Of a stretch of DNA of 21,129 bases, positions 1,205 to 21,129 are shown one piece after another. This DNA comes from a virus: positions 1 to 21,129 of IMG/VR virus record IMGVR_UViG_3300032224_000619; one strand, 5' to 3'. The translations under genes were made by a program, and so were the position numbers. Every line of letters begins with the position of its first letter. Position 1 is the first letter of the stretch. Under the pieces are notes generated by a model. That model was not told the origin of the DNA. It searched no databases and saw only the letters and a program-made list of their open reading frames with translations.

Positions 1205-1214
1205 GCAGTAGGAT

Positions 1215-1345: not shown

Positions 1346-1361
1346 GACAGCTTGGAAAGAC
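1346..1361 (+). repeat. GGAAAGAC hairpin motif, copy 1
   Basis: GACAGCTTGGAAAGAC is the first of three copies of GACASCTYGGAAAGAC in the window. It begins 4 bases after the tRNA-like 3' end. The hairpin is GCTTG (1350-1354), loop GAAAGA, CAGAC (1361-1365), with one mismatch. A T-rich stretch follows. Confidence 0.55.
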
Positions 1362-1377
1362 AGACATCTTTTATTAA

Positions 1378-9369: not shown

Positions 9370-9861
9370 ATGGAAACATGGAAACAAATTCCTTCTTATG
9401 AAGGACTTTATGCTATTAGTGATTGTGGAAATGTCAAGTCTATTAGGAAAAACAGATGCCTAAAACCTACTGTAGATGCTAAAGGATATCTTTATGTTTC
9501 TTTATGTAAATCAGGCAAAGAAATAAAATATAAAATCCATAGGCTTGTAGCACTATCATTTATTGAAAATCCTAATAATTATGATCAAGTGGATCATATT
9601 AATAGGATAAAAGATGACAATAGTATTAAAAATCTTAGATGGGCAAATAATAGTATAAATGCTCATAATACTATGTCTAGAAAAAATAGTACTTCCAAGT
9701 TTAAAGGAGTTTCTTTAGATTCTTCTTCAAGATTAAAAAAGTGGAAAGCAGTTATTAATATTAATAAAAAAGCTTTTCATCTTGGTAGATTTTTAACAGA
9801 AGAAGAAGCACATGAAGCACGTTGTAAATTTGAAAAAGAGTATAGTAGTTTACACAACTAA
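9370..9861 (+). CDS. Free-standing HNH homing endonuclease (NUMOD4-HNH-AP2)
   Basis: 163 residues. The N-terminal NUMOD4 motif is WKQIPSYEGLYAISDCGNVK (4-23). The HNH_3 core is IHRLVALSFIENP then VDHINRIKDDN and NLRWAN, with the metal-site His in DHIN. The C-terminal AP2-like DNA-binding segment is SKFKGVSLD then WKAVININ and FHLGRF. It is more AT-rich, with many AAA/AAT codons, than neighbouring genes, consistent with a mobile origin. It lies between two intact genes of the replication block, and no group I core surrounds it, so it is free-standing. It would nick or cut cognate DNA to spread itself into related phages. Confidence 0.9.
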   Translation: METWKQIPSYEGLYAISDCGNVKSIRKNRCLKPTVDAKGYLYVSLCKSGKEIKYKIHRLVALSFIENPNNYDQVDHINRIKDDNSIKNLRWANNSINAHNTMSRKNSTSKFKGVSLDSSSRLKKWKAVININKKAFHLGRFLTEEEAHEARCKFEKEYSSLHN

Positions 9862-12871: not shown

Positions 12872-15158
12872 ATGACTAAAGCAGAATCGCTTAGTAAAGT
12901 TAGTAAGGAATTGATGTTGAAGGAGCCGTTTTACGGCTTTTTCCTTTTAATGCTCAATAAAGTATGGGACGCTAAGCGTGTACCTACAGCATGTGTGAGC
13001 AAAAACAACATTAATTATCAGCTTACTATTAATCCTGAGTTTTGGGAAAGTCTTATAGACAAACACCAAATGGGATTACTCAAACACGAGCTCAAGAGGG
13101 CTCCTTATACAGTAATGTATATGTAAAATGTCTTAAATTGACGGGAACTGCCTTAGAGCTTTATCTACCAAGTACACACAGTGATGTAGTGTATGGCCAG
13201 AATAATTACCTGGGTAAGGTAAAAAAGATAAAGATTGGCAAATCCGCAGCCAAATTTCTTATTATATGATTTATTTTTGGTATATTGTAGTCTAAATACT
13301 TACATATATGAAAACAAAAATAGAACAAGAAGTAATTGATTACTATATTATTGATAAACTATCGGGACAAAAAATTGCAAGCATATTAAAAATAAATCCT
13401 AAAACAGTGTTTGCTATTTTAAAAAGAAATAATATAAAATCAAGAACTTTGTCTGAAGCAGCAATGAAGTATACTTGCCAAGATGATTTTTTTAATGTTA
13501 TAGATACAGAGAAAAAAGCATATTGGTTAGGAGTATTATTTGCTGACGGTAATATTACGAAAAAAGCAAGTAAATCTGGACAAATTATTTTTTCATCAAA
13601 AGATAAAGAATGGGTAAAACTATTTTTATTAGATATTGGATCAAATAATTCTCCAAATTGTGAATATCAAAAACTATATAAAAAGTATATATGGAAAGCT
13701 CAAATAACTTCAGCTAAAATGTATGACGATTTAAATAATTTAGGATGTACACCTGCTAAAACCAAAACAATTAGAATACCTGCAATAAAAAATAAGCTAG
13801 TCCATCATTTTATAAGAGGTTATTTTGACGGTGATGGTACAGTAGGTCTTTATAAAAACCTAAAAAATAATGATTGGAAAATCTTAAAATCAGGTTTTTG
13901 TTCTGGTTCACAACAATTTATTAGCGATTTATTAGAAATAATACCAGTAAAAAATAAAAAAATTAAACAAGTTAAAGAATGTTATATTACACAGCACTCT
14001 TTAAATGATACTCTTAATCTATTTAAATACATGTATAAAGATTGCACAGTATGTTTAGAAAGAAAAAGAGAAATTTTTATTAATTATTTAGACACATATA
14101 AACCAAGAAAGAGGTTCAACGACTACAATAGACCATCCTAATAAGGATGAAGGTATAGTCTGATCTCATGTGAAAGCATGAGTTAACATAAATGCTTGCA
14201 TATTGCATTTAACCATCTTACTAGTACGTTTCCGTTTAGTGATAAGAAGCTGGCTAATATTGCATTTGACTTAGAGATTAATCAATTTATTGACCCAGAA
14301 TGGCTCCCTGAAGGAGGTTTAACACTAGATACTTATCCAGAGTTAAACTTAGAGGCTAAACAGGGCAGTAGATATTATTATTCTAAGTTGCTTGCAGCAA
14401 AACAGGATAAAGATAAAAAAGGCACATCAGGTTGTCCCAATTTTGACAAACATTGTGACCAAATGGATAATGGAGAAGATCCTGCAAACCATGATACTTG
14501 GGAAGAATTTGAAGATTTACCAGAAGCAGAGAGAAAGCTTATTGAAAAGCAGGTACAACGTGTGCTTAGCGAGGTAAAAGAGCAAACAGAAAAGCGTCAG
14601 GGAAATGTTCCTGGTGAGATGGTAGGCAAGATTCTTATCGAAGTAATTGAGAAAGCTAAGTTTAATTGGCGTGAGTATGTACGTAGATTTGCTGGCAACA
14701 GTACTAAAATTTATACTAAGAAAGTACGACGCAAAGAGAACAGAAGGTTTTCCGATAATCCTGGACTAAAGATCAAAATGCGTCAACACATGTTGTTGGC
14801 TATTGATACATCAGGATCCGTAAGTGACGCAGAGCTAAAAGAATTTATGAATGAAATATTTCATATTTACAAACAAGGCGTAGATGTTACTATCGTACAA
14901 TGTGATACGGAAATTAAAAGCATTAGATCTTATAAAGGTGCTTTAGATTTAGAAGTAGGTGGAAGAGGAGGAACAAGTTTTGATCCTGTATTAGAATACT
15001 TCAATGAGAATCTCAAGAAATATACTAGTCTAGTATATTTTACCGACGGCGAATGTGATACCGACATAAAGCCGCGTGGACCCATTTTATGGGTGTTATC
15101 AGAAAGGTCTTATAATAACGAAAACCTTCCTGGAAAAGTAATCAAGTTAGAACTTTAA
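12872..15158 (+). CDS. Metallopeptidase-VWA protein split by a group I intron (join 12872-13092, 14195-15158)
   Basis: Exon 1 is 221 nt, exon 2 is 964 nt; joined they encode 394 residues. Splicing after U13092 and G14194 restores HELLHIAFNHL, an HExxHxxxxH metal site (H72, E73, H76, H81), which neither exon holds alone. KLANIAFDLEIN follows, as in DUF2201-type putative metallopeptidase domains. The C-terminal VWA-like domain carries the MIDAS motif DTSGS (278-282). An acidic linker lies between. The partner is the MoxR-type AAA+ ATPase starting 10 bases downstream; MoxR/VWA pairs act as chaperones or insert metals (CobS/CobT-like). Without splicing, exon 1 ends in a stop at 13124-13126, giving an 84-aa product. 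Confidence 0.85.
13093..14194 (+). other. Group I self-splicing intron, 1102 nt
   Basis: P1: 5' exon GAGCT (13088-13092) pairs with GGCTC (13099-13103), with the required U-G pair at the splice site. P10: intron CAAG (13093-13096) pairs with 3' exon CTTG (14195-14198). The intron ends in G (14194). The core includes GACGGGAACTGCC near 13139-13152, AATCCGCAGCCAA near 13242-13254, P7 CGACTA (14120-14125) with TATAGTC (14154-14160), P8 CATCC/GGATG (14134-14149) and P9 CTCATG/CATGAG (14165-14182). It carries the LAGLIDADG gene. Insertion is exactly in codons for a metal-binding HExxH motif, the sort of conserved site such introns target. Confidence 0.93.
13308..14141 (+). CDS. Intron-encoded LAGLIDADG homing endonuclease, 277 aa
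   Basis: The two LAGLIDADG motifs are YWLGVLFADG (72-81, D80) and FIRGYFDGDG (168-177), so it works as a single-chain monomer. The N-terminal ~45 residues form a helix-turn-helix of the YYIIDKLSGQKIASILKINP type that may aid DNA recognition or self-regulation. It cuts intronless alleles of the VWA gene to spread the intron, and may also assist folding as a maturase. The 3' end overlaps the ribozyme core: its last codons contain the 5' strand of P7 and half of P8. AT-rich codon use differs from the host gene. TTATTTTTGGTATATTG at 13271-13287 could be its own promoter, weakly. Confidence 0.92.
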   Translation: MKTKIEQEVIDYYIIDKLSGQKIASILKINPKTVFAILKRNNIKSRTLSEAAMKYTCQDDFFNVIDTEKKAYWLGVLFADGNITKKASKSGQIIFSSKDKEWVKLFLLDIGSNNSPNCEYQKLYKKYIWKAQITSAKMYDDLNNLGCTPAKTKTIRIPAIKNKLVHHFIRGYFDGDGTVGLYKNLKNNDWKILKSGFCSGSQQFISDLLEIIPVKNKKIKQVKECYITQHSLNDTLNLFKYMYKDCTVCLERKREIFINYLDTYKPRKRFNDYNRPS

Positions 15159-16343: not shown

Positions 16344-17555
16344 ATGAGCAATAAAATATTTTACAAGTCCTTGTATATTACCAGTTTAGAGACGGATTAT
16401 AAAGGCGACATTTTATCTTTAGATGTTGAAACTATTGGAGTAATACACGAAGACGATGTCAAAGCTATCCCTTATACTACTTATACACAAAAACCGTATG
16501 AGAAATATTTCTTGATGCCTGGCACAGCAGTGCCTAGGGTAAAACTACAAAACCTATCTGTAGATGCTGGAATTAAAGTAGTGCGTTCTCCTGAAGATGC
16601 TGATAAAGTATTTGTTGGCAAAAACAGTTTTAGTAAAATGTCCAAATCTGGACATGTGTATGCTGTCGAAAAAGCTTTAATTGAGGCTTATCTCAATTCT
16701 GAAGCTTTGACTACAGATGAGTATATCACTGATCGATTAAGAATAGCATTGCTTAATGCTGAGCATACTTACATTGCTATGGATTACAGTGCTAGAAATT
16801 TCTTCATAGGCAATGTACCTAATAAGCAACAAGTAATGCTGCGAACTCTTCATGATAAGTCTCCTAATAGATTAAAATCTAACAATTTTACTTATGAGCA
16901 TTATATTATTGAAGGTAATTATTGTGAGATGTTAGATAAAGCTTTAAATAGCTCTAATTTGCAGATCTGCAACGAACAGGATTTATTAGAAAATCTTAAT
17001 GGTGATGATGCATTGATTATTTCACAAGGTGAGTTTAATCAGTTATCGGAGATGTTTAGGAGTTCTGACAAAGATAATCACGTACTTGCTATGGAGATTA
17101 TGGCGAATTCTAACTATTCTCAAAGTATTTTTTACTTGATGAGATTGTTTAAAGATTTCAATCAGCATATGGCTGGTCAAAAATCTAGAAACCATGTTAA
17201 TTTTAAGAGCCTACTCAGCTATTTATCTATGGGTACTGCAACTTATAATTGGGATGTAACAATTAATAAAGTGTTAGAGACTATCAAAAACAAAGGTTTG
17301 TTAACCGTACAAATGATTGAAGAGGCTTTTGTTGCATATGAATACGAAGTAAAAGCTTATTCTGTCCAAGAGAATTCTGTGATTCAGATTAAGTCTTACA
17401 CTTTACATCCAGATTATGCAGCGTTTCTTAACACAAATTATGTAAACACTGTAAAAGAGGATTTTATTCCTGTAGAAACAGTAGAGGTTCCTGAAGAACC
17501 TCAAATATTAGCCGACGTAGTACCTGATAAAACAGAGTCTATTAGTTGGAATTAA
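16344..17555 (+). CDS. Large unknown protein linked to the MoxR/VWA pair, 403 aa
   Basis: Starts 5 bases after the ATPase. Soluble, no membrane segment. N-terminal ~180 residues look mixed alpha/beta (SLYITSLETDYKGDILSLDV). The middle (~200-330) is helical (LAMEIMANSNYSQSIFYLMR, GLLTVQMIEEAFVAYEYEV). The C-terminus is disordered and acidic (VEVPEEPQILADVVPDKTE) and ends ESISWN. No catalytic motif is evident and I do not recognise the family. By position it may be the substrate, adaptor or third subunit of the MoxR/VWA machine. The Trp-containing acidic tail recalls the tails at 11173 and 11817. Confidence 0.75.
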   Translation: MSNKIFYKSLYITSLETDYKGDILSLDVETIGVIHEDDVKAIPYTTYTQKPYEKYFLMPGTAVPRVKLQNLSVDAGIKVVRSPEDADKVFVGKNSFSKMSKSGHVYAVEKALIEAYLNSEALTTDEYITDRLRIALLNAEHTYIAMDYSARNFFIGNVPNKQQVMLRTLHDKSPNRLKSNNFTYEHYIIEGNYCEMLDKALNSSNLQICNEQDLLENLNGDDALIISQGEFNQLSEMFRSSDKDNHVLAMEIMANSNYSQSIFYLMRLFKDFNQHMAGQKSRNHVNFKSLLSYLSMGTATYNWDVTINKVLETIKNKGLLTVQMIEEAFVAYEYEVKAYSVQENSVIQIKSYTLHPDYAAFLNTNYVNTVKEDFIPVETVEVPEEPQILADVVPDKTESISWN

Positions 17556-17564
17556 GAGAGAAAT

Positions 17565-18059
17565 ATGGTAAGCGCAATTAAATTAGAATTTCCAGAGTTT
17601 ATTACACATATTCCTCAAAATAAAAAACTATGGGTCAAGATTGGTTACAATAAGATTCATGCAAGTGCGCATTTTTCCACGCGGGCGGCTCTAGTGGCCG
17701 CCATGCATGGATATATTGAGAAGCATATTCCACCAAACCTTACTATCCAAGGTCCCGTAGAAACTAAATTGATTGTATATGCGCCGATAAACTTCGGCAG
17801 TGTAAAAATGACTCTTAGCAGACAGACAGGTAGACGACAAATTAGTTGGAAACCTGCTTTGGCTAGCTATAAACCAAATTGGGATATTGGAAATCTGGCC
17901 CTAGTATGGCTAAAATCATTAGATGATGTGTTGATCAAAAAGGGGATACTACCCGACGATACTATTGAGTACATACAACGCACAAGTTATGAGTTTAGAC
18001 CTGTAAAAGATTTCAAAGACAGAAAATTAGTATACGAACTAAAAACAATTAAACGATGA
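17565..18059 (+). CDS. rusA-like: RusA-like Holliday junction resolvase, 164 aa
   Basis: The catalytic signature of RusA is visible: KPNWDIGNLALVWLKSLDDV (103-122) corresponds to 'KPDiDNl.K...DaL' and ILPDDTIEYI (128-137) to '..DDsqv'. The expected acidic residues D107, D120/D121 and D131/D132 are present. The usual KPD is KPNWD here, a small deviation. RusA enzymes resolve four-way junctions arising in phage recombination and packaging. Stop and next ATG overlap (ATGA), coupling it to the nuclease. Confidence 0.8.
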   Translation: MVSAIKLEFPEFITHIPQNKKLWVKIGYNKIHASAHFSTRAALVAAMHGYIEKHIPPNLTIQGPVETKLIVYAPINFGSVKMTLSRQTGRRQISWKPALASYKPNWDIGNLALVWLKSLDDVLIKKGILPDDTIEYIQRTSYEFRPVKDFKDRKLVYELKTIKR

Positions 18060-19075
18060 GCGTGGATTATAGAGACATTCCCGCATTAAATCAAAGTTCC
18101 TTAAAGAAAATATTGACTCATCCTCAAGACTACCTCAATGCGATCAAACGCAATGAGGAGTCTAAAGAGGATCACTTTATTTTTGGCACACTAGTAGATT
18201 TAATGTTGACAGGAACAAAAGAAGAATTTGATAGCAAGTTTTATGTTATCAAACAAGACATTAGTATTACCGATGCTGTAAAAGCTATTGTAGACGGTGT
18301 TGTAGAAGAGGTACGCAACCTTGGCGTAGATTTATCCTTGTGGACCAATGAGCGTGATGTAATTCTAAAGCATGTGAAGTATCAAAACTACCAAGGTAAC
18401 TGGAAAGATGATACCAGAATCGATGCTATTATCAAAGCTGCTCAAGGATATGTAACGTTATTGGAAACTGTCGGCAACCGCACAATAGTCACCGACCTTA
18501 CGTATTCTAAAGCAGTAAATGCTGTAGCAGGATTACGTTCTGATAAGTTTACTCAAGAGTTTTCTATGCCTGCAAAGAAATATCCTGAGCATATTCAAGT
18601 AATTGATAAATTTATTGTGAGCTTTAAGCACTTAGATTTTAACATCAAGGGCGAATTAGACAGAGTTATCATTAATCACCAAACTCAACGAATTAAACCC
18701 CTCGATTTTAAGACTACAAGTAAGCCGATTATAAACTTTATGAGTGAATTTTGGAAACTACGGTATGATTTTCAGGCAGCGACGTATTCTTTAGGATTAG
18801 TATCCCATCCAGAAATCAAAGAGTTGCTTGACAAAGGCTATACTATGGAGCCATTTAGATTTATAGTAGCTCACTCTGAGTCTATTACTGCTCCTATGGT
18901 ATTTACAGTGCCGATGAAAGTAATCACTATAGGCACCTACGGCGGCGAAACTTCAGTAAGATATTATGAGGGTCTTGAACAAGCTTTGCAACGTTACGAA
19001 TTTGCTACAACTAACAATCTTTGGGATTATCCTAAAGAGTATTACGAAAAAGGATCGATTGATATAGAACTATGA
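18056..19075 (+). CDS. RecE/Cas4-like PD-(D/E)XK exonuclease, 339 aa
   Basis: N-terminal LNQSSLKKIL then FGTLVDLMLTG (43-53) are typical of RecE/DUF3799-type nucleases. The catalytic core is GELD (199-202), PLDFKTT (215-221, D217 and K219) and the motif IV Q240-x3-Y244 (FQAATYSLGL). It would digest dsDNA ends 5'-3' to expose single strands for the Sak4-like annealer and SSB. No Cys cluster of the Cas4 Fe-S type was seen. Coupled by ATGA on both sides. Confidence 0.85.
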   Translation: MSVDYRDIPALNQSSLKKILTHPQDYLNAIKRNEESKEDHFIFGTLVDLMLTGTKEEFDSKFYVIKQDISITDAVKAIVDGVVEEVRNLGVDLSLWTNERDVILKHVKYQNYQGNWKDDTRIDAIIKAAQGYVTLLETVGNRTIVTDLTYSKAVNAVAGLRSDKFTQEFSMPAKKYPEHIQVIDKFIVSFKHLDFNIKGELDRVIINHQTQRIKPLDFKTTSKPIINFMSEFWKLRYDFQAATYSLGLVSHPEIKELLDKGYTMEPFRFIVAHSESITAPMVFTVPMKVITIGTYGGETSVRYYEGLEQALQRYEFATTNNLWDYPKEYYEKGSIDIEL

Positions 19076-19689
19076 CGACAATGAAATTCACAAAAACCGC
19101 AACTTTTCTCTTTCCACTAACGACCATTCCTAAAAGTTTGTTTGAGTGTAACATCAAAGATGTATTTGGAAGAACTAAGTTTACTACAAGATTTGTTAAT
19201 GCTTTCTCTTCTAGTACTTGTATTAACAAGTATCAAGAAGAACCAGGCTTAATATTTATTGTAACTAAACAATATCAAGATGTGGGTTTTGAGGCTTTCT
19301 ATACAACGATAACTTCTTTCCCCAACTATGTAGATGATTATGATGATTCAGGGTATCTAGTGTTTATTTTTAGGATTCCTGAAGAAAATCAGAAAGATTA
19401 TGAGTTAATACTAAACGGGAAATATTCAAAAATTTCGCAGCAAAGTAAAAAATTAATACTAGGAAATAACTTTTTTACAGGAAAAGCCTTTACTTTGCCA
19501 TTAATCTTAAACAAATCTGAAGCATTAAAAACAAGTTGGGAAGATCGGCTTAGTCTTCCATGGTCTCCTGCAGTTTTGGGAGATCAAGAAGTTTGGCCAA
19601 TAATTGACTCAGTAGAAGAAGTCTTGACGCCTGATGTGATGAAAAACATCGCAATGACATCAAAACTAACACCATCGGGGGAGTTTTAA
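19072..19689 (+). CDS. Phage protein of unknown function, 205 aa
   Basis: The ATG at 19072 overlaps the nuclease stop; a second ATG at 19081 is an alternative. Soluble mixed fold: PNYVDDYDDSGYLVFIFRIP (about 85-104), LILNGKYSKISQQSKKLI (about 112-129), and SWEDRLSLPWSP near 155-166. The family is not recognised by name, though it looks like small proteins often placed near phage recombination genes. Last gene of the operon; a GC-rich hairpin covers its stop codon and a terminator follows 44 bases later. Confidence 0.7.
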   Translation: MTTMKFTKTATFLFPLTTIPKSLFECNIKDVFGRTKFTTRFVNAFSSSTCINKYQEEPGLIFIVTKQYQDVGFEAFYTTITSFPNYVDDYDDSGYLVFIFRIPEENQKDYELILNGKYSKISQQSKKLILGNNFFTGKAFTLPLILNKSEALKTSWEDRLSLPWSPAVLGDQEVWPIIDSVEEVLTPDVMKNIAMTSKLTPSGEF

Positions 19690-19697
19690 GCTCCCCC
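19677..19697 (+). other. GC-rich hairpin across a stop codon
   Basis: GGGGGAG (19677-19683) pairs with CTCCCCC (19691-19697), 7-base loop containing the TAA stop. No T run follows; probably a 3' stabiliser or pause element ahead of the real terminator. Confidence 0.5.
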
Positions 19698-19732
19698 TAT
19701 ATGGGCTTCTACAATCTTTTATAAAGATGATT

Positions 19733-19796
19733 AGAGAGGGAGGATTTAAGTTAAACAAGGGTTTTAAATTAAATCGGGAGCCTCCCTCTCTTTTTT
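19733..19796 (+). terminator. Rho-independent terminator of the recombination operon
   Basis: AGAGAGGGAGG (19733-19743) and CCTCCCTCTCT (19781-19791) form a perfect 11-bp stem around a 37-base AT-rich interior, then a run of T (19791-19796). Confidence 0.85.
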
Positions 19797-19807
19797 AACT
19801 AGTCATA

Positions 19808-19839
19808 TAAGTCACAAAAACACATATAATTGTGACTTA
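19808..19839. repeat. Perfect 10-bp inverted repeat
   Basis: TAAGTCACAA (19808-19817) and TTGTGACTTA (19830-19839) around a 12-base AT-rich loop. Neither side has a T tract, so it is not a terminator. It may be an operator or the base of the structured RNA that follows. Confidence 0.5.
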
Positions 19840-19936
19840 CAAGACAAGTTAAGATAAGGGGTAAAAATTGCCACATATCTAAATACGAAATGTAATAAGG
19901 GATAGGCGCAACAACTCCCGTTTTCAATAGAACGCT

Positions 19937-19952
19937 GACAGCTCGGAAAGAC
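19937..19952 (+). repeat. GGAAAGAC hairpin motif, copy 2
   Basis: GACAGCTCGGAAAGAC. Hairpin GCTCG (19941-19945), loop GAAAGA, CGAGC (19952-19956), all five pairs Watson-Crick. Confidence 0.6.
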
Positions 19953-19961
19953 GAGCAACAT

Positions 19962-20045
19962 ACGCTGAGAAGGTAACTGGGTTGCCCGAGCAGGCCGTAC
20001 ACCTGCAGTGTCAAAATGAAGGACGTTCGAATCGTCAGCAGCGTG
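19962..20045 (+). tRNA. Degenerate or unusual tRNA-like structure, anticodon position GTA
   Basis: 84 bases with all four arms in tRNA order. Acceptor ACGCTG (19962-19967) with CAGCGT (20039-20044). A D-arm-like GGTAA-CTGGG-TTGCC (19972-19986). An anticodon-like arm GCAGG-CCGTACA-CCTGC (19990-20006), a perfect 5-bp stem with 7-nt loop and GTA (Tyr) at 34-36. A 14-15-base variable region. T arm GACG-TTCGAAT-CGTC (20022-20036). Deviations: C instead of the invariant U33, a too-short D loop, a 6-bp acceptor and a 4-bp T stem. These suggest a tRNA relic or mimic rather than a working tRNA-Tyr. A second ACGCTG (19932-19937) could compete for the same 3' strand. Confidence 0.4.
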
Positions 20046-20107
20046 CAAGACAACGGCGAATATAAGCCAAATGTTTAGCCCGCGCGGGGCAATTAATTAA
20101 CGGCTTG

Positions 20108-20123
20108 ACGGGTGGCCACCCGT
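20108..20123. repeat. Perfect 16-base palindrome
   Basis: ACGGGTGG followed by CCACCCGT, fully self-complementary. As RNA it forms a 6-bp stem with a GGCC loop; as DNA it could be a dimeric protein site. Confidence 0.6.
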
Positions 20124-20139
20124 GACACCTCGGAAAGAC
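20124..20139 (+). repeat. GGAAAGAC hairpin motif, copy 3
   Basis: GACACCTCGGAAAGAC. Hairpin CCTCG (20128-20132), loop GAAAGA, CGGGG (20139-20143) with one G-U pair, then ATTTTTA, so this copy may also act as a terminator. Confidence 0.6.
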
Positions 20140-20176
20140 GGGGATTTTTAAAACGACACGACATGACAACAAAAAA

Positions 20177-20224
20177 CCCTCTACACCTGAGAATAGAGGG
20201 AGACTTACAAACTTCTCTGTAAGT
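20177..20224. repeat. Two tandem perfect hairpins
   Basis: CCCTCTA/TAGAGGG (20177-20183, 20194-20200, 10-base loop) and ACTTACA/TGTAAGT (20203-20209, 20218-20224, 8-base loop), two bases apart. No T tract follows on either strand. They end 84 bases before the HNH gene. Confidence 0.5.
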
Positions 20225-20308
20225 GGGGTAGATACAAAGATATTAAATAACAATAAATATGACACCAAAAGAAATGTATTAATAGGATTAAAGTATTATA
20301 TTTGCAAT

Positions 20309-20839
20309 ATGAAAAAAATAATAAAATATCCAAATTATTATGTGACTAAAGAAGGCAAAGTATTTAGTTCCAAATCTAATAAATTCTTAAGACCATCATT
20401 TGATAAACAGGGCTACGCAAGGGTTGGAGTCTATATTGGTAATTATAAAACAAAGACAATAAAAATACATAGACTTATTGCGGAAACATTTATTGATAAT
20501 CCATTTAACAAAAAAGATGTAAATCATATTAATGGAATAAAAAGTGATAATAGAGTTGAGAATCTTGAATGGTGTACAAGAAGTGAAAATATAAAACACG
20601 CTTTTAGAACTGGATTGAGTAAAATTTCAGATAATCAAAAAAATCGATTTATTCAAATGACAAAAGCACAAATAGGTAGCAAAAATCCATCAGCAAGAAA
20701 AATAATTAACACATTAACAGGGGAGGTATTTAATACAATAAAAGAAGTACTTCCTTTAGTTAATTTAAAAAGAACCACTTTTCAAGCTATGTTAAATAAT
20801 CAAAATCCTAACAAAACAAATTTTAAATATTATGATTAG
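20309..20839 (+). CDS. Free-standing HNH homing endonuclease (NUMOD4-HNH-NUMOD1)
   Basis: 176 residues. The N-terminus has a NUMOD4-like YPNYYVTKEGKVFSSKSN segment. The HNH_3 core is IHRLIAETFIDNP, VNHINGIKSDN and NLEWCT. The C-terminal NUMOD1-like DNA-binding helix is IINTLTGEVF then LVNLKRTTFQAMLN. Very AT-rich codon use, unlike its neighbours. TATATTTGC (20297-20305) just before the ATG matches the Bacteroidota -7 element TAnnTTTG, which would give an almost leaderless mRNA, but no -33 partner is seen. Its stop overlaps the next gene's start by 8 bases. It differs from the 9370 gene in its C-terminal domain, so the two arrived separately. Confidence 0.9.
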   Translation: MKKIIKYPNYYVTKEGKVFSSKSNKFLRPSFDKQGYARVGVYIGNYKTKTIKIHRLIAETFIDNPFNKKDVNHINGIKSDNRVENLEWCTRSENIKHAFRTGLSKISDNQKNRFIQMTKAQIGSKNPSARKIINTLTGEVFNTIKEVLPLVNLKRTTFQAMLNNQNPNKTNFKYYD

Positions 20840-21050
20840 TCCTAAAGAAAAAGCAATAGAACTATTTGAACAAATGTATACTTGCTATCAAGGTCATATT
20901 GACGCATACACAGCCAAGCAATGCGCATTGATTACAGTTGATGAGATATTACAAAATTTTGGCCAATTAACAGAAGGAGCTAACTTTTATACAAGTTATA
21001 ATACTATTAAATTTTACCAAGAAGTAAAACAAGAATTAGAAAAGCTATGA
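20832..21050 (+). CDS. Small conserved phage protein, 72 aa
   Basis: ATG at 20832 lies inside the end of the HNH gene (ATGATTAG shared). The pattern MISPKEKAIELFEQM then AKQCALITVDEIL (about 28-40) is common in small all-helical phage proteins of unknown function. ATGA overlap with the next gene. The intact frame shows that the HNH element landed just upstream without breaking it. Confidence 0.75.
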   Translation: MISPKEKAIELFEQMYTCYQGHIDAYTAKQCALITVDEILQNFGQLTEGANFYTSYNTIKFYQEVKQELEKL

Positions 21051-21129
21051 GACAACTAGTATACAACGCAGTAACCTGCACAGAGTGCAACGAGACTATC
21101 GTTAGCTACCACAGACATGACTACAAGAC
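21047..21129 (+). CDS. 5' end of a small zinc-ribbon-like phage protein (partial)
   Basis: ATG at 21047 overlaps the previous stop. The frame reads MRQLVYNAVTCTECNETIVS then YHRHDYK and runs off the right edge. The C-x2-C followed by I-x-S-x-H-x-H-D-Y is typical of a short phage family that continues with a second Cys pair ('HDY..C.C'), so a zinc-binding knuckle is likely. The second half is outside the window. Confidence 0.7.
   Translation, partial: MRQLVYNAVTCTECNETIVSYHRHDYK

Follow-up and report, generated by a model that had tools for sequence, protein, structure and literature searches.

In the early leaders of phage lambda, the boxB element forms a 5-bp hairpin whose purine loop is GNRA-like, and very few phages are known to use protein-free antitermination. 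HK022 putL is about 70 nt long, has two stem-loops just downstream of PL, and acts on RNA polymerase without phage proteins (PMC9378689). Phage tRNAs counter tRNA-targeting defences (PMC10264068, PMC11555353), and phage T6 counters Septu through a homing endonuclease that amplifies tRNA-Tyr (PMC13096335). Here we analyzed a 21,129-nt stretch of viral DNA (the window), whose DNA polymerase resembles those of crAss-like phages and has its best annotated match in a Leptolyngbya phage.

The initial annotation had marked positions 19890-20160 as a GC-richer non-coding region. This description was confirmed: the stretch is intergenic, its GC content is 51.7% compared with 34.8% for the whole window (0.14% of 271-nt windows are equally rich), and its longest ORFs are at most 84 aa and antisense. 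Folding energy alone does not set the stretch apart from chance (MFE z = -1.1; 28 of 200 shuffles do equally well); thus, its many hairpins prove nothing by themselves. Two of the hairpins have the common loop GAAAGA. The idea that the region is bounded by terminators is weak: five terminator-like sites were found in 17000-21129 against 2.1 expected, but one of them is the second of these hairpins itself.

Instead of one RNA of about 270 nt, as proposed initially, 19899-20143 contains a conserved phage RNA module twice, with a tRNA-like RNA between the copies. The module has a closing stem (P1), a GACA linker, and a 5-bp hairpin (P2) with the loop GAAAGA, usually followed by A. In module 1, P1 (19905-19936, + strand) is formed by GGCG (19905-19908) and CGCT (19933-19936), and its loop holds ACTCCC and TTC-AATA-GAA; in a related locus, L036, the stem is AGCA/TGCT. 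GACA and P2 copy 1 follow at 19937-19957 (+ strand; GCTCG-GAAAGA-CGAGC, then A; 38.4 bits and E=3.8e-8 with covariance model R1). P1 of module 2 (20108-20123, + strand), identified by sequence and by a P1 scan, is the perfect palindrome reported previously, ACGGGTGGCCACCCGT, which is exact (ACGGGT-GGCC-ACCCGT) and abuts the GACA of copy 2 (20124-20144, + strand; CCTCG-GAAAGA-CGGGG, then ATTTTT; R1, 36.2 bits, E=1.4e-7). Copy 3 is located at 1346-1366 (+ strand; R1, 31.3 bits, E=2.5e-6), where P2 is GCTTG-GAAAGA-CAGAC with one mismatch; its counterpart in the close relative L219 is GCCTG/CAGGC. These three are the only clear copies in the covariance-model search of the window, the next best hit scoring 8.2 bits. 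A reading as degraded tRNA genes only is unsupported; a reusable P1-GACA-P2 module is present besides the tRNA-like genes.

tRNA-like element 2 (19961-20045, + strand) begins 4 nt 3' of hairpin copy 1. It has an acceptor (19961-19967/20039-20045; TACGCTG/CAGCGTG), a hairpin (19972-19986), an anticodon-like arm (19990-20006; GCAGG-CCGTACA-CCTGC, with GTA in the loop), and a T-arm (20022-20036; GACG-TTCGAAT-CGTC). The constrained cloverleaf folds at -25.8 kcal/mol, in agreement with the tRNA-like fold noted earlier, and neither ARAGORN nor cmscan calls a tRNA there; ARAGORN predicted no tRNA in the whole window. Element 2 departs from canonical tRNAs in having no D-arm signature and a C at position 33. 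tRNA-like element 1 (1214-1342, + strand) has an acceptor (TAGTCCAG/CTGGACTA), a Leu-type D-arm and a canonical T-arm, and departs from them in the long insert that replaces its anticodon arm. The acceptor at the same place in L219 is TAGTCAGG/CCTGACTA, a compensated difference. In L219, the place of window positions 1205-1214 is taken by about 200 nt of non-coding, structured-looking sequence, located about 210-250 nt ahead of a tRNA-like gene starting at 1420.

Two ACGCTGA segments (19932 and 19962) had been described as competing for one CAGCGT (20039). The positions are correct, but the first ACGCTGA is part of the conserved module (AATAGAACGCTGACA), which is found without a following tRNA-like gene in L103, L215 and L216; functional alternative pairing is therefore unsupported, and the apparent competition is probably incidental. 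The earlier suggestion of an unrecognised structured phage RNA near tRNAs, unrelated to GOLLD, gained support. Rfam 15 covariance models returned nothing at the gathering threshold across the whole window, and cmscan of 19690-20310 returned only sub-threshold chance matches up to E=5, with no GOLLD or ROOL among them. Matches to miRNA-like families near 19785-19893 scored under gathering and were set aside as chance. In the related loci, the only families at gathering were tRNA, RNase P, and one unrelated cis-regulatory family.

Two close relatives, L004 and L005 (neighbouring proteins 95% identical), lack 19896-21050 (+ strand): homology runs until about 19895 and is found again from the MRQLVYNAVTC gene, the 3' boundary being approximate. 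At this place both are without the RNA region, an HNH homing-type endonuclease ORF (20309-20839, + strand; PHROG HNH families, best E=3.6e-41), and one small ORF. Judged from this comparison, the RNA region and the HNH ORF are parts of one insertion. The contig that carries L215 and L016 is from another close relative (exonuclease fragment 94% identical). L215 holds the same 63-nt module at 89% identity elsewhere in the genome, downstream of two tRNA-like genes and upstream of a thioredoxin gene. Elsewhere in the window, replication genes flank another free-standing HNH-like endonuclease ORF (9370-9861). A VWA/metallopeptidase-like gene is split at 12872-14196: the first ORF stops after ...GLLKHEL, homology is found again at MHIAFNH (phrog_1314), and a LAGLIDADG-like ORF (13308-14141) separates the halves. 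The arrangement suggests that a group I intron within the HExxH codons has escaped recognition, but Rfam finds no intron.

The hairpin is present at more than 180 phage and prophage loci in many bacterial phyla. A collection scan with the pattern GACASNYCGGAAAGACGRNS gave at least 120 loci, and a search of 84,980 bacterial and archaeal genomes with a stricter pattern yielded 62, distributed among Pseudomonadota, Bacteroidota, Clostridia, spirochaetes, Planctomycetes, Verrucomicrobia, Dependentiae and others. Named phages with the hairpin include about 60 Vibrio phages, Iodobacter phiPLPE, Xanthomonas FoX2, Bacillus 055SW001, Erwinia phiEt88, Aeromonas phiA005 and Stenotrophomonas BUCT708. Two other matches were discarded as chance: the single match of GTTGCCCGAGCAGGCCGTA in viral contigs, apparently within coding DNA of an unrelated contig, and a 20-nt match at the 3' end of an ssRNA phage, in which the hairpin does not form. 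In the open-access literature, we found no paper containing the letters of the motif save one unrelated eLife paper; an earlier description is possible.

The scan pattern left three outer stem pairs free and required only Y-R at one other pair. Among the matches listed, the three free pairs were all formed in 107 of 117 distinct hits, and the Y-R pair was C-G in 56, T-A in 40, T-G in 21, and C-A in none. Tolerance of T-G and complete absence of C-A are as predicted for an RNA on this strand. An alignment of 42 variants showed compensated changes in four of the five stem pairs; because only variants forming three or more pairs had been admitted to it, the counts from the scan are the fairer test. 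In addition, a P1 helix ending 0-2 nt before GACA was found across loci with p=2e-11 against permuted upstream sequence. The module recurs in phages and prophages of many phyla with covarying stem pairs, and the pairs are compensated in unrelated loci on one strand. An RNA hairpin family is well supported by these data, and its function we infer below. A sigma70 -35 box (TTGACA) was rejected as an explanation of the linker: T precedes GACA in 86 of 117 hits, the base before it is mostly C, and no -10 is conserved downstream. A general long-range helix 3' of the hairpin was not found overall (p=0.18), only a subset of about 10%, with 13-20 bp, being significant.

Further features were observed near some of the hairpins. 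Several proteobacterial phages (L150, L024, L207 and L048) have a second common motif, (C)CGGAGATCAGCACCGG(C) (GGAGATCAG[TC]ACC in a hairpin), near GAAAGA hairpins, and some prophages (L080, L053 and L117) have, ahead of the hairpin, a conserved domain of about 130 nt (TTGATGGGT...CCCTTAACTGGTGGCCTGGTAATCAGGG...GAGAAATACAGG). Small hypothetical ORFs annotated over structured RNA regions in Vibrio phage K453 (L026, 2895-3256) and Xanthomonas phage FoX2 (L027, 1653-2152) are probably spurious.

We then examined the genomic context of the family. In E. coli and Klebsiella prophages, an untranslated leader of 500-1000 nt separates a CI-like repressor from the left early operon, and the hairpins are located within it; in enterobacterial prophages, the module begins about 45 nt into the untranslated leader, as counted from the predicted start. 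At seven loci, a pL-like TTGACC-N-TAANNT sequence is positioned 81-82 nt ahead of the first hairpin. After the pL-like site, the prophage leaders carry a two-stem unit (AGTTGTT/AACAGTT, then GACA-P2). In five of them, counted by the exact sequence searched, a strong intrinsic terminator follows and stands between hairpins. The leaders with pL and terminator are mutually related and thus represent few independent cases. In enterobacterial and related prophages (L222-L225, L151, L091, L100, L107, L119, L144 and L090), the leader terminator is immediately preceded by a common tag, TGCTGTGTGTAGTCTTGG. Proteus prophages show the same order (cro, cI, hairpin, small gene, exonuclease), and genes for repressors, replication initiators and exonucleases adjoin the chromosomal copies. 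Strict intrinsic terminators within 300 nt downstream were found at only 9% of all loci, and their enrichment is weak.

By analogy with known early leaders, we propose for the module a put-like role as an antitermination or anti-pausing RNA, which may also serve untranslated tRNA-like RNAs; this is a tentative reading in which our confidence is somewhat short of even. As HK022 put and lambda nut do, the module would act in cis while part of the nascent transcript. After its synthesis, its RNA would modify the transcribing RNA polymerase or recruit a universally conserved host factor, and the polymerase would then resist pausing and termination, enabling phages to produce untranslated leaders, tRNAs, and tRNA-like RNAs whose transcription would otherwise be cut short by Rho or intrinsic terminators. 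In the window phage, the module is predicted to drive transcription through the tRNA-like RNA into the segment with the HNH gene and small ORF. Presence across phyla favours a universal target. Points against this reading are the small share of loci with a strict terminator downstream and the existence of copies immediately 3' of a tRNA or antisense to structural genes (Vibrio phages). The more specific reading, a near-universal antiterminator RNA acting directly on RNA polymerase and coupled to anticodon-less tRNA-like phage RNAs, is possible but rather doubtful. Two stem-loops just downstream of an early leftward promoter, the arrangement that characterizes put, are present in enterobacterial prophage members, at the genomic address that putL has in HK022. 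By sequence, the module is outside the put family: its motif is absent from the genome of HK022, the put type phage, and the cI-distal region of HK022, the expected place of putL, looks different.

A second context emerged from tRNA features, which had not been looked for. On the strand of the hairpin, tRNA T-loops (TTCGATT, TTCGAAT, TTCGAGT and others) showed the strongest enrichment of all 7-nt loops within 800 nt. In 167 regions, T-arms numbered 74 on the hairpin strand versus 2 on the opposite strand, and ARAGORN tRNAs within 600 nt numbered 31 versus 0; only 25 of the 74 same-strand T-arms are inside a recognised tRNA. Closing acceptors could be assigned for 66 elements, often 90-155 nt long. 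Of these, 38 are not called tRNA, and many have a normal acceptor and T-arm with an insert replacing the anticodon arm; some hairpins precede ordinary tRNAs (Leu, Thr, Asp and Met). Retention of acceptor and T-arm without a usable anticodon arm, together with compensated acceptor changes, is what would be expected of anti-defence decoys, i.e., tRNA-like RNAs that absorb or outlast tRNA-cutting defence nucleases with the hairpin as a stabilising 5' cap. The T6 tRNA-Tyr case (PMC13096335) likewise recalls the GTA-bearing element beside the HNH gene in the window. We nevertheless consider decoys unlikely, because the hairpin also occurs without a tRNA-like partner (a T-arm lies within 600 nt in 50 of 167 regions), notably in early-operon leaders, and because some partners are ordinary tRNAs.

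The acceptor of the tRNA or tRNA-like RNA begins 0-7 nt past the hairpin, mostly 4-5 nt, in 25 of the 66 elements, and all partners starting within 15 nt fall in this range. Such a constant short spacer to the acceptor 5' end, together with four tandem hairpins ahead of tRNA-Leu in L183, could indicate a processing or stability leader that controls RNase P access or blocks exonucleases. However, most copies have no tRNA directly downstream, and such a leader would leave P1 and the early-leader copies unexplained. We regard this function as quite unlikely.

Conservation of the 20-nt sequence might also reflect a homology island or ssDNA hairpin for exchange of phage modules. Between-locus alignments start at -10 to 0 and end at +20 to +23 around the hairpin: L044 and L143 are 97.5% identical from -2 onward with no similarity upstream, whereas L055 and L081 are 96% identical up to +21 with no similarity downstream. 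L023 and L026 differ by insertions at the hairpin, and the module is at different genome places in the window phage and L215. The points at which similarity breaks off suggest, as a suggestive reading only of alignments that were seeded by the common hairpin, that flanking domains have been swapped while the hairpin stays. However, the stem-pair pattern (T-G tolerated, never C-A) and the strict strand agreement with tRNAs indicate an RNA, and exchange can be a by-product of conservation; a recombination linker is accordingly, in our estimation, distinctly unlikely. Vibrio phages in which long structured non-coding regions and tRNAs accompany the hairpin, with promoter-like sequence 5' and terminator-like sequence 3', would fit part of a large ornate RNA of the GOLLD/ROOL kind, with a structural or other function. 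This is highly improbable given that Rfam has no match, the abundant non-coding RNA of about 800 nt in ICP1, which we examined, lacks the hairpin, and the conserved unit is small and modular. An origin of replication, also raised initially, or chance structure without function would suit a GC-rich intergenic palindrome and an ordinary overall folding energy but is extremely improbable, as cumulative GC skew climbs smoothly through the region to the window end with no change at the site, and the three window copies (E<=2.5e-6) are conserved across phyla with covariation.

Bacterial termination should destroy long untranslated phage RNAs. A short module found at early leaders and before tRNA-like RNAs, in phages from Bacteroidota and Clostridia to Planctomycetes, would offer a directly testable and perhaps general solution to this problem. 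In addition, the analysis points to a large class of tRNA-like phage RNAs that have gone unannotated because gene callers overlook them or place spurious ORFs over them.

Compared with the described systems, the module resembles GOLLD and ROOL in being a structured phage RNA near tRNAs and differs from them in having no Rfam match and in being a small repeated unit rather than a single 600-800-nt fold. Its partners are like phage tRNA genes in acceptor and T-arm, some being ordinary tRNAs, but over half are unrecognised as tRNA, with inserts in place of the anticodon arm. With lambda nut (boxA-boxB), it has in common a 5-bp hairpin with a purine loop in early leaders; by contrast, the module has a GAAAGA hexaloop, an invariant GACA linker and a far wider host range, and we noticed no boxA and identified no linked N protein. 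HK022 put differs in its two long stems, where the module has a 5-bp hexaloop hairpin, and in a genome without GACA-GAAAGA, and the module spans phyla and often abuts tRNA-like genes. What the module has in common with put is a pair of neighbouring stem-loops, spanning about 60-70 nt, with which an early untranslated leader begins right after a pL-like promoter; in some members, a strong intrinsic terminator comes next.
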